From assembly GCA_030841085.1 (NCBI GenBank), contig JAVEDP010000032.1:1-64000 (forward strand): 64,000 nucleotides of DNA, given 5' to 3'. Shown here in pieces: positions 24,737 to 28,240 of the stretch. The stretch is from Pyrinomonadaceae bacterium. GTDB taxonomy: Bacteria; Acidobacteriota; Blastocatellia; Pyrinomonadales; Pyrinomonadaceae. Both the position numbers and the translations under genes were made by a program. How positions within the stretch are numbered: the stretch's first letter is position 1; each line of letters begins with the position of its first letter. The notes below the pieces were generated by a model. That model was not told the DNA's origin, ran no database searches, and was given only the letters and a program-made list of their open reading frames with translations.

Positions 24737-26101
24737 TCAAAACAACTCTTCCAGCGCTTCTTCAACCGAACGCACGCCGACGGTTCTTATTCCCAACATG
24801 CGTTCTAATCCGGCGGTGTTGGAAGACGGCATGACGATCGTCTTAAATCCGAGCGCCTGCGCCTCGCGCGCGCGCACCACTGCTTGGGTGGTACCGCGCA
24901 CTTCGCCGGTTAGACCAACCTCGCCAAAGACCGCGGTGTGCTGATCGATTGGCGCGTTGCGAAAGCTCGAGGTGATTGCCGCAACGACGCCGAGATCGAC
25001 CGCCGGCTCGTCAACTTCCAACCCGCCGGCGATGTTTACGAACACATCATCGCCGAGCATCTGCAAGCCAACGCGTTTTTCCAGCATTGCCATTAATAAC
25101 GACACTCGATTTTGATCGACACCCTGCGTCATGCGCCGGCCAGTGCCGTACTTGGTTTCCGAAACAAGCGCCTGAATTTCCACCAACAGCGGTCGCGTTC
25201 CTTCCATGCAGGCGGTGACGACGGAGCCGGCAACATTCTGCGGCCGCTCCTGCAAAAACATCTGCGACGGATTCGCCACCGGAATCAGGCCCGCGCCGGT
25301 CATTTCAAAAACACCAATCTCATTCGCGGCGCCGAAACGGTTTTTCACTGCGCGCACGATGCGATGGTTGTGATGTCGTTCGCCTTCGAAATAAAGAACG
25401 GTGTCAACGACGTGTTCCAGCGCTTTCGGGCCGGCAATCGATCCGTCTTTCGTGATGTGGCCGATCAGGAAAACCGGAATAGTGCGTTTTTTTGCGAGCA
25501 ATAAGAACTGGTGCGCCGCTTCCCTCACCTGCGATACCGAACCGGGCGCTGATTCGATCATCGCCGAAAAAACTGTCTGAATAGAATCGACTACGATCGC
25601 GGTGGGCTTTAGTCGTTCAACTTCATGAAAAATATTTTCGAGATTAGTTTCCGGCAACAGGTAAAGGTTCCGGGCTTTGATTCCCAAACGCTCACCGCGC
25701 ATTTTGATTTGCCGTTCCGACTCTTCGCCGGAAACGTAAAGCACCGCGCTGCCGTTTGCGCTGAGTTGATCGGCAACCTGAAGCAGCAATGTGCTTTTGC
25801 CGATGCCCGGGTCGCCGCCGATCAAAACCAGCGTGCCGGGAACGATGCCGCCGCCCAAGACCCGATCAAATTCCGTCACGCCTGACGCCATGCGCACTTC
25901 GTCCTGCGATTCAATTTCACTGTAAGCAATGGCCTCGACTTCGCGAGTCTGAAAAGTATTTCGAGCGCGGCCTTTTTGCGAGGCGCGCGCGCGTTCTTCG
26001 ACCAGCGAGTTCCACTCGCCACACTCGGGGCATTTTCCCAGCCACTTGCGCGACTGGTTTCCGCAGTTCTGGCAAACAAAGATTGTTTCGGAGTTTTTCA
26101 A
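24737..26101 (-). CDS. radA: DNA repair protein RadA/Sms
   Basis: Branch-migration ATPase/helicase used in homologous recombination and repair. 454 aa. Seen: N-terminal C4 zinc finger with Cys10, Cys13, Cys24 and Cys27 (CQNCG...CPECGEW), Walker A GGDPGIGKSTLLL, Walker B-like VVDSIQTV, the RadA-specific VKNRFGAANEIGVFEM, and the C-terminal Lon-like domain (VFVNIAGGLEVDEPAVDLG to MPSSNTAGLERM). Start taken as TTG at 26101 with GACGAGG upstream. The frame is open to 26158, but that extension is family A repeat sequence and not RadA-like. Confidence 0.94.
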   Translation of the reverse strand: MKNSETIFVCQNCGNQSRKWLGKCPECGEWNSLVEERARASQKGRARNTFQTREVEAIAYSEIESQDEVRMASGVTEFDRVLGGGIVPGTLVLIGGDPGIGKSTLLLQVADQLSANGSAVLYVSGEESERQIKMRGERLGIKARNLYLLPETNLENIFHEVERLKPTAIVVDSIQTVFSAMIESAPGSVSQVREAAHQFLLLAKKRTIPVFLIGHITKDGSIAGPKALEHVVDTVLYFEGERHHNHRIVRAVKNRFGAANEIGVFEMTGAGLIPVANPSQMFLQERPQNVAGSVVTACMEGTRPLLVEIQALVSETKYGTGRRMTQGVDQNRVSLLMAMLEKRVGLQMLGDDVFVNIAGGLEVDEPAVDLGVVAAITSSFRNAPIDQHTAVFGEVGLTGEVRGTTQAVVRAREAQALGFKTIVMPSSNTAGLERMLGIRTVGVRSVEEALEELF

Positions 26102-26130
26102 AAGGACCTCGTCGTAATGGGTGGCGCTTT

Positions 26131-26250
26131 CACTGGGACCGCGGCGTCTCGCCCGCAACGTACGCCAGATGCTACTTTTTTAGGAAAATGGCCGCCCTGA
26201 TCTTTTCGCGCTTCGCGCTCATTGCGGGCGGGACGCCCGCGGTCCCAGTG
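26131..26250. repeat. Family A inverted repeat, between radA and the ArsC-like gene
   Basis: Arms cactgggaccgcggcgtc and gggacgcccgcggtcccagtg, with the gcgcttcgcgctcattgcg continuation of the other copies. It overlaps the apparent 5' extension of the radA reading frame. Confidence 0.85.
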
Positions 26251-26260
26251 CGCAGCAGCC

Positions 26261-26614
26261 TTATAATAGCGCTTTTACATTTTCGACGGGCCGCCCGAGC
26301 ACCGCGCGATTTCCGCGTTCGACTATCGGCCGTTGAATCAAGTCCGGATGTTCTACCATCAGCGAAATGATTTCGTTGTCGGCGAACTCATCTTTTCCCA
26401 AACCAAGCTCGCGATAGATTGATTCGCTGGTGCGCAACAGTTCGCGCGGTTTGATCTTCATCTTGCGAATCAACTCCGTGAGCTTCTTCTTCGTCAGTGG
26501 CTGGTTGTAGTAATTAACTTTTTCAAAGTCTACGCCACTCTCCCGGAGCAGCTTGTCCATCTCGCGACACTTTGTTCAAGTGGGTTTTTCGTAAATTGTT
26601 ATCTTGTCCGACAT
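26261..26614 (-). CDS. ArsC/Spx-family reductase, candidate selenoprotein (in-frame TGA)
   Basis: Small thioredoxin-fold protein of the ArsC/YfgD/Spx family, 117 aa if the TGA at 26576-26578 is read through. The frame starts MSDKITIYEKPT, then TGA, then TKCREMDKLLRESGVDFEKV, so the TGA replaces the catalytic cysteine of the usual KPTCxxC motif and gives UxxC (U13, C16). The rest is intact: NYYNQPLTKKKLTELI, KPRELLRTSESIY, and the family ending LMVEHPDLIQRPIVERGNRAVLGRP. A hairpin fitting a bacterial SECIS follows (separate entry). GCAGAG lies before the ATG. The alternatives are a nonsense mutation or a sequencing error. Without read-through only an inactive 99-aa product from ATG 26560 would remain. 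The substrate (arsenate or a disulfide) is unknown. Confidence 0.75.
26534..26552 (-). promoter_or_regulatory. SECIS-like hairpin after the in-frame TGA
   Basis: In the mRNA, gcugcuc-cggga-gaguggc forms a 7-bp stem (two G-U pairs) with a 5-base loop whose second base is G. The loop begins 30 bases after the UGA, within the usual 16-37-base range for bacterial SECIS elements. It lies wholly inside the coding sequence, as bacterial SECIS elements do. Confidence 0.55.
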
Positions 26615-26750: not shown

Positions 26751-28019
26751 TTAAGGAAATATTCCCCGCACCCTGGTCGCTTCCGCCACCCGATCGACGG
26801 CCAAAATGTACGCGCCGGTGCGCATGTCGGTGTCATAGCGCTGGGACGTTTCATAAACGGATTTGAAGGCGGTGCGCATCGTCTGTTCCAGCGTTTCGTT
26901 AATCTGGTGTTCCGACCAGAAGAACGAATACTGATCCTGCACCCATTCGTAGTAACTAACAGTCACACCGCCGGCGTTCGCTAGAATGTCGGGAATCAGA
27001 AACACGCCCTCGTCTGCCAACACGCGATCCGATCCCGGCGTGGTTGGTCCATTCGCCAACTCCGCAATAATCTTTGCCTTCACTTGTCCAACGTTTGCCA
27101 GCGTGATTGCGTTCTCGAGGGCGGAGGGCAAAAGAATGTCGCAATCGACGCCGATGATGTCTTCGGGCGATATTGATTTTACTCCCGGTAGACCGGCAAG
27201 AGATTTTGTTTCCGCCTTGTGTCGTAACGCGGCCTGAATGTCGATGCCGGAATCGCTGAAAATTCCGGCTTTGGAATCGCAAGCAGCAACAACGCGTGCG
27301 CCATCTCCGGCCACCAGCCGCGCGATGTTCGCGCCGGCGTTGCCAAAGCCATGGACCGCGACGCGCGCGCCGTTAAGATTGATTCCTTTCACGCGACAGG
27401 CTTCGCGCAATGCATACAAACAACCGCGCGCAGTCGCTTCTGCTCGTCCCTGCGACCCACCGAGCGAAATCGGTTTCCCGGTTACCACGCCCAATTCGGT
27501 GTGTCCGCGGACCATCGAGATGGTGTCCATGATCCAGGCCATGGTTTGTTCGTCGGTGTAAACATCGGGCGCGGGAATATCGCGATCCGGGCCAATGATT
27601 GGCGCGATTTCAAAAGCGTAGCGACGCGTTAATCTTTCCAGTTCATTCTTCGAAAGGCTTTTCGGATCGCAAATGACTCCGCCTTTTCCGCCGCCGTAAG
27701 GAATGCCAACCGTCGCACATTTCCACGTCATCCACGACGCCAGCGCTTTCACTTCATCGAGCGTCACGTTCGGGTGATAACGTATCCCGCCTTTCGCTGG
27801 GCCACGCGCGATGTTGTGCTGAACGCGATAGCCTTCGAAGACCTGGACGTCGCCGCCATCCATCTTCACCGGAATGGAAACGATCAACTGGCGCTTGGCT
27901 GCGCTTAGAACGTTGCGCGTTGACTGGTCAAGATCCAGATAGTCGGCAGCGCGATTGAATTGTTGTTTGGCAATTTGGAATGGATTGAGTTCTTCCTGAA
28001 GGGCTTCCATGGTCGCCAT
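26751..28019 (-). CDS. Glu/Leu/Phe/Val dehydrogenase (glutamate dehydrogenase type)
   Basis: NAD(P)-dependent amino-acid dehydrogenase, most like glutamate dehydrogenase: oxidative deamination of glutamate or reductive amination of 2-oxoglutarate. 422 aa. Seen: VFEGYRVQHNIARGPAKGGIRYHP, the catalytic-lysine region PYGGGKGGVICDP, GRAEATARGCLYALREA, the Rossmann stretch VAVHGFGNAGANIARL, and ILANAGGVTVSYYEWVQD. ATG 28019 is chosen for CCAGGAG eight bases upstream; the frame is open to 28070. It is apparently transcribed alone, with repeats on both sides. The exact substrate (Glu or branched-chain) is not settled by eye. Confidence 0.94.
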   Translation of the reverse strand: MATMEALQEELNPFQIAKQQFNRAADYLDLDQSTRNVLSAAKRQLIVSIPVKMDGGDVQVFEGYRVQHNIARGPAKGGIRYHPNVTLDEVKALASWMTWKCATVGIPYGGGKGGVICDPKSLSKNELERLTRRYAFEIAPIIGPDRDIPAPDVYTDEQTMAWIMDTISMVRGHTELGVVTGKPISLGGSQGRAEATARGCLYALREACRVKGINLNGARVAVHGFGNAGANIARLVAGDGARVVAACDSKAGIFSDSGIDIQAALRHKAETKSLAGLPGVKSISPEDIIGVDCDILLPSALENAITLANVGQVKAKIIAELANGPTTPGSDRVLADEGVFLIPDILANAGGVTVSYYEWVQDQYSFFWSEHQINETLEQTMRTAFKSVYETSQRYDTDMRTGAYILAVDRVAEATRVRGIFP

Positions 28020-28059
28020 GCGTGTTCTCCTGGAAAGAGTGCGAGAGCGCGGCAATCGT

Positions 28060-28240
28060 AAAGTGTCCAAAGTCCAAAGTCCAACGTTGAGTATCTCTCA
28101 AGAAGTTCAGAGTACAACCTTTAGGTTGCTGTCGTTCGGGAAGAAGCAAACTAAAGTTTGTACTCTGAACTGCTTGAGCCTGGCAACAGCACCGCAACTC
28201 AGCACTCAGTACTCAGCACTCAGCACTCGGAACTTTCCTT
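28060..28240. repeat. Repeat-rich spacer before the TonB-like gene
   Basis: Divergent gap of about 290 bases. It contains tandem gtccaaagtccaaagtcc, then gttcagagtacaacctttagg ... aactaaagtttgtactctgaac (an inverted element shared with 17036-17112), then a 7-bp array actcagcactcagtactc. The last motif recurs next to prs at 51393-51478. No clear promoter was picked out. Confidence 0.75.

Follow-up and report, generated by a model that had tools for sequence, protein, structure and literature searches.

The question raised by this locus is whether the single in-frame TGA of an ArsC-like gene in a Pyrinomonadaceae genome marks a damaged gene or encodes selenocysteine (Sec). The gene lies in a stretch of 64,000 nucleotides (the window), located within contig C9 of a 4.69-Mb genome that is 98.88% complete. 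A sequence-only reading had proposed that a reductase of the ArsC/Spx family carries UGA in place of its catalytic cysteine, followed by a SECIS-like hairpin, and had considered a chance nonsense mutation at this one codon improbable. The position of the TGA, its conservation, the covariation of the SECIS, the Sec machinery, the fold and the catalytic residues were computed. Taken together, comparative sequence data make it very highly probable that UGA codon 13 specifies Sec at the active site of a glutaredoxin-type ArsC-family selenoprotein and that its insertion is directed by a SECIS element.

The reading frame and its homologues

On the minus strand, positions 26614 to 26261 form a single 117-codon frame, the sole internal stop of which is the TGA at 26578-26576, and the readthrough product reads MSDKITIYEKPT-TGA-TKCREMDKLL...VKALL*. 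The ArsC-like frame is therefore intact across the TGA to its terminal TAA, as originally described. The features of the locus are collected in Table 1.

Table 1. Predicted features of the ArsC-family locus and its neighbours in the window.
Feature	Position	Strand	Remarks
Putative ArsC-family selenoprotein gene	26261..26614	-	117 aa; TAA stop at 26261-26263
TGA codon 13, predicted to be read as Sec	26576..26578	-	Opposite Cys12, the catalytic residue of E. coli ArsC
Cys16 (TGT), candidate resolving cysteine of UxxC	26567..26569	-	Invariant in 44 homologues
Predicted bacterial SECIS hairpin, 7-bp stem and 5-nt CGGGA loop	26534..26552	-	Pairing and covariation across TGA homologues
Glu/Leu/Phe/Val dehydrogenase (glutamate dehydrogenase-like), upstream neighbour	26751..28070	-	Conserved neighbour
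RadA-like DNA repair ATPase, downstream neighbour	24737..26158	-	Zinc-ribbon motif CQNCGNQSRKWLGKC, RecA/ChlI-like domains; often conserved

In profile searches, the readthrough protein scored 71.6 bits against PF03960 (cut-off 24) and narrowly passed the TIGR00014 arsC model (106.6 bits vs. a cut-off of 106.05), while the Spx/MgsR model TIGR01617 remained below its cut-off (70.4 vs. 75.05) and Spx models fell far below theirs. The proposed ArsC/Spx assignment can be narrowed to ArsC (TIGR00014). An AlphaFold2 model built from 44 homologues (pLDDT 90.2, pTM 0.82) returned ArsC structures as its top Foldseek matches (TM ~0.9), with Spx ranking lower. Residues 3-112 of E. coli ArsC align without gaps to residues 4-113 of the protein, with U13, R61, R95, and R108 falling on C12, R60, R94, and R107, an alignment that bears out the earlier placement of the TGA at the catalytic Cys and the resulting UxxC motif. 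Positions U/C13, Arg61, Arg95, and Arg108 are invariant in the 44 homologues. The modelled fold is that of ArsC with its three catalytic arginines conserved, so that a score barely above the curated TIGR00014 cut-off is joined by the catalytic Cys/Sec and the three arginines of E. coli ArsC.

Homologues were sought in 59 genomes, comprising the source genome and its relatives, 35 of which contained a match, and a GTDB genome scan yielded 80 loci, some sharing an assembly. After removal of duplicates, codon 13 was TGA in 28 distinct homologues and TGC or TGT in 61, and encoded another residue in none; the alignment for which the sequence-only reading had called thus found exclusively Cys or TGA at this codon. 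The TGA homologues comprise 27 from Acidobacteriota (Pyrinomonadaceae and relatives) and one from Gemmatimonadota (Gemmatimonadales). An in-frame UGA opposite the conserved redox Cys of homologues is a feature by which bacterial selenoproteins are recognized. The nearest homologue, from an independently assembled congener (L022/L051, a separate MAG), likewise has TGA at codon 13. Downstream of the TGA, 29 of its changes relative to the query are synonymous and 6 nonsynonymous (dN/dS 0.04), so that the TGA represents neither a sequencing error nor gene decay. Where it could be estimated, dN/dS downstream of the TGA was ~0.03-0.12, and purifying selection was apparent both 5' and 3' of the codon. 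A search of viral contigs for relatives found none.

Selenocysteine machinery and the SECIS hairpin

The source genome contains selA (540.8 bits), a full-length selB (359.5 bits over cut-off), selD (354 bits; L017, G000:C29:109349-110278, minus strand) and two tRNA-Sec genes with a UCA anticodon (73.3 and 67.7 bits). The components on which the sequence-only reading had staked its proposal are all present, and SelA, SelB, SelD, and tRNA-Sec together constitute the set expected where a bacterial selenoprotein is made. The selD gene itself contains an in-frame TGA, within SCSG-U-AAKLSP, the usual Sec site of SelD. Presence of the machinery fails to distinguish Cys users from Sec users, since almost every relative in the class has it. 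Among complete relatives, only G035 (99% complete) lacks both a selB and a tRNA-Sec match over cut-off, and this genome carries the Cys form, as would be expected. A full selB was not found in the draft assemblies of the TGA-form relatives G004 and G015, which weighs against the Sec reading, although both have tRNA-Sec.

The two tRNA-Sec genes of the source genome are distinct (L001, G000:C10:60168-60262, minus strand; L002, G000:C4:20689-20783, plus strand). Each precedes a DprA-like gene, and both are located near contig ends of similar GC, and the pair may reflect either duplication or a mixed assembly. Among the relatives, G015 has four tRNA-Sec matches and G016 has two.

The predicted SECIS hairpin is composed of a 5' arm, GCTGCTC (26552-26546), the CGGGA loop (26545-26541), and a 3' arm, GAGTGGC (26540-26534), on the minus strand, with a spacing of 23 nt from the UGA to the stem and 30 nt from the UGA to the loop; the stem, the G-containing loop, and both spacings are those that had been proposed. 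The published bSECIS model specifies a loop of 3-9 nt, a stem of 4-16 bp, and a distance of 16-37 nt from the UGA, together with a G within the first two loop nucleotides, a G or U after it, and a minimum free energy of at most -7.5 kcal/mol (PMC13188914). The query element, with its 5-nt CGGGA loop, 7 bp, 30 nt, and -8.9 kcal/mol, lies within these limits (PMC13188914). Folded singly, the query gave no significant signal (54 nt, -12.8 kcal/mol, z -0.23; hairpin alone, -8.9 kcal/mol, z -1.37), and 7/7 pairs also arise in 3.7% of synonymous recodings of its peptide. The predicted hairpin is thus weak evidence in one sequence, while the comparative data put it beyond chance. Across 26 aligned TGA sequences, the seven stem pairs were formed in 94.5% of cases, as compared with a mean of 89.3% for shuffles and 33-63% for slid versions, and none of 500 shuffles attained the observed paired percentage or covariation score. 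Changes on both sides were seen in four pairs, e.g., from C-G to U-A at the loop-closing and third-from-loop pairs.

On average, 6.54 of the 7 pairs were formed in the TGA homologues vs. 4.08 in the Cys homologues, and z-scores against a synonymous-recoding null were 9.2 and 4.3, respectively. For the most part, the Cys homologues are without the SECIS hairpin, and their excess of pairs over their own null means that the pairing is in part a consequence of the peptide or a trace of fossil SECIS elements. The loop reads CGUGA in 19 and CGGGA in 7 of the 28 TGA homologues (26/28), and in the 26 aligned sequences it follows the UGA at a distance of 30 nt. A covariance model scored the query hairpin at 81 bits, the query being one of the sequences on which the model was trained. 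The Gemmatimonadales homologue (L123:1501-1851), which has TGA at the catalytic codon, is without the Acidobacteriota-type hairpin and folds a different one 17 nt after the UGA, with an identical CGUGA loop, a pattern suggestive of separate recruitment of one SelB-recognized loop.

Other explanations of the TGA fare poorly against these data. A lone TGA in one draft genome would fit a pseudogene or a sequencing error, in which a chance nonsense mutation fell on the Cys codon, but the recurrence of TGA at codon 13 in 28 distinct homologues, the 29 synonymous vs. only 6 nonsynonymous changes in the congener, and the covarying SECIS leave this explanation with almost no probability and uphold the argument made against it at the outset. 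Translation could instead begin at ATG codon 19, where a 99-aa ORF opens, producing a protein without an active site. However, Met is found at that codon in only 8 of the 28 TGA homologues, codons 4-12 (KITIYEKPT) are conserved and change mostly synonymously, and the Cys homologues have an uninterrupted frame across the site, so that an internal start is scarcely credible. The UGA might also be read as Cys or Trp or by near-cognate readthrough, and occasional UGA readthrough is known to occur, but the genome encodes the full Sec machinery and a Sec-type SelD, and the UGA is found solely at the nucleophile position and together with a SECIS, making a non-Sec reading very improbable.

Catalysis, substrate, and known relatives

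From the residues and elements described above, we infer Sec insertion, a redox cycle, and the substrate. During translation, SelB carrying Sec-tRNA-Sec would decode UGA codon 13 as Sec under the direction of the SECIS hairpin, which lies within the coding sequence and starts 23 nt after the UGA, and Sec would stand where the family has its catalytic Cys. An oxidized substrate held by Arg61, Arg95, and Arg108, which would be arsenate if the protein is a true arsenate reductase, is probably attacked by the selenolate. Cys16 would resolve the intermediate via a selenenylsulfide, which thioredoxin or glutaredoxin would then re-reduce.

Assignment of the substrate is more finely balanced. The Sec protein may be real and yet function as a general thiol/selenenylsulfide reductase or an Spx-like protein rather than an arsenate reductase, a reading to which we give slightly less than an even chance. 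It is favored by the mere half bit by which TIGR00014 was cleared, by the presence of Cys16 and Glu9 at the Ser and His8 positions, respectively, of E. coli ArsC, and by conserved neighbours that are glutamate dehydrogenase and RadA rather than ars genes. Against it, the three substrate-binding arginines are invariant, and the nearest folds are those of ArsC and not Spx, the models of which scored under their cut-offs. The order glutamate dehydrogenase/ArsC gene/radA is found in most Acidobacteriota orthologues of the clade, and no arsenic genes were seen among the scanned neighbours. A search for the arsenite exporter genes acr3 and arsB found neither in the 99% complete genome. An arsenic-resistance role is not assured because of this result, which also favors the non-arsenate reading and lowers the expectation that the predicted reductase acts on arsenate; arsenic resistance and a broader thiol/selenol redox role appear about equally likely.

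A 2005 survey of the Sargasso Sea described Sec-containing arsenate reductases with a UxxS motif (PMC1088965), and arsenate reductase (ArsC 1) selenoproteins, likewise UxxS, were also found in the GOS survey (PMC2398784) and are listed under TIGR00014 (PMC13188914). These marine ArsC 1 selenoproteins share with the present protein COG1393/TIGR00014 membership, Sec at the catalytic Cys, and an in-frame SECIS, but they are UxxS proteins of marine metagenome sequences, whereas the present one is a UxxC protein of Acidobacteriota of the Pyrinomonadaceae. ArsC-like selenoproteins were described in Deltaproteobacteria in 2006 (PMC1794560), and the 2008 GOS study included the UxxC "arsenate reductase 2" (cd03032; PMC2398784), in agreement with the statement in the sequence-only reading that ArsC-like UxxC selenoproteins occur in bacteria. 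A further "arsenate reductase-like" UxxC family is NF041106, ArsC_rel_Se_1 (PMC13188914). Like the present protein, arsenate reductase 2 and NF041106 are UxxC selenoproteins of the ArsC superfamily, although the present protein scored 19.6 bits against the NF041106 cut-off of 85 and passed TIGR00014 instead. E. coli ArsC (R773; PDB 1i9d/1jzw) has the same fold (TM 0.91), a gap-free alignment, and equivalents of all four catalytic residues (Cys12/Arg60/Arg94/Arg107), from which the present protein differs in having Sec for Cys12 and Cys16 for Ser, in being without a His8 equivalent, and in its location outside any ars operon.

Sec-containing ArsC proteins being already known, the present gene is a well-supported further example from an Acidobacteriota soil bacterium. 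It adds a well-documented selenoprotein to a dominant soil phylum that is scarcely covered in open-licence selenoproteome papers. Standard gene callers will cut such a gene short or overlook it, and they will often annotate the 99-aa ORF from ATG codon 19. A second, distant ArsC/Spx-like group was observed within this class, in a different family (L135, L136, and L137, from G044, G048, and G056), with TGA in UTTC (e.g., KIHFWQKST-U-TTCRNAR) and a hairpin downstream; the two members tested fell short of every curated cut-off for ArsC, Spx, and NF041106.

Interchange of Sec and Cys

In a phylogenetic tree that rests on few columns and has many open forks, Sec and Cys rows are intermixed. The changes between them number 13 (13-15 over the bootstrap range), and well-supported branches force at least six. 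One gene, L095:1501-1851, has TGC at the Sec codon, yet retains an intact 7/7 SECIS with a CGUGA loop and is sister, with high support, to the Sec gene L100; it looks like a recent Sec-to-Cys switch. Tentatively, and with the balance tilted against it, one orthologous locus in one soil-bacterial family may swap Sec and Cys in both directions, with frozen intermediates (a Cys gene with an intact SECIS), and its protein may be a redox enzyme that depends on Sec and serves some purpose besides arsenic detoxification. With numerous Sec and Cys orthologues in one family, and the SECIS kept or lost alongside, these genes provide a natural experiment on Sec/Cys interchange. A Cys copy and a Sec copy were also observed in a single assembly, G010 (L055 and L067, on contigs C120 and C381), both adjoining the glutamate dehydrogenase end, and this assembly may be a mixed-strain MAG.
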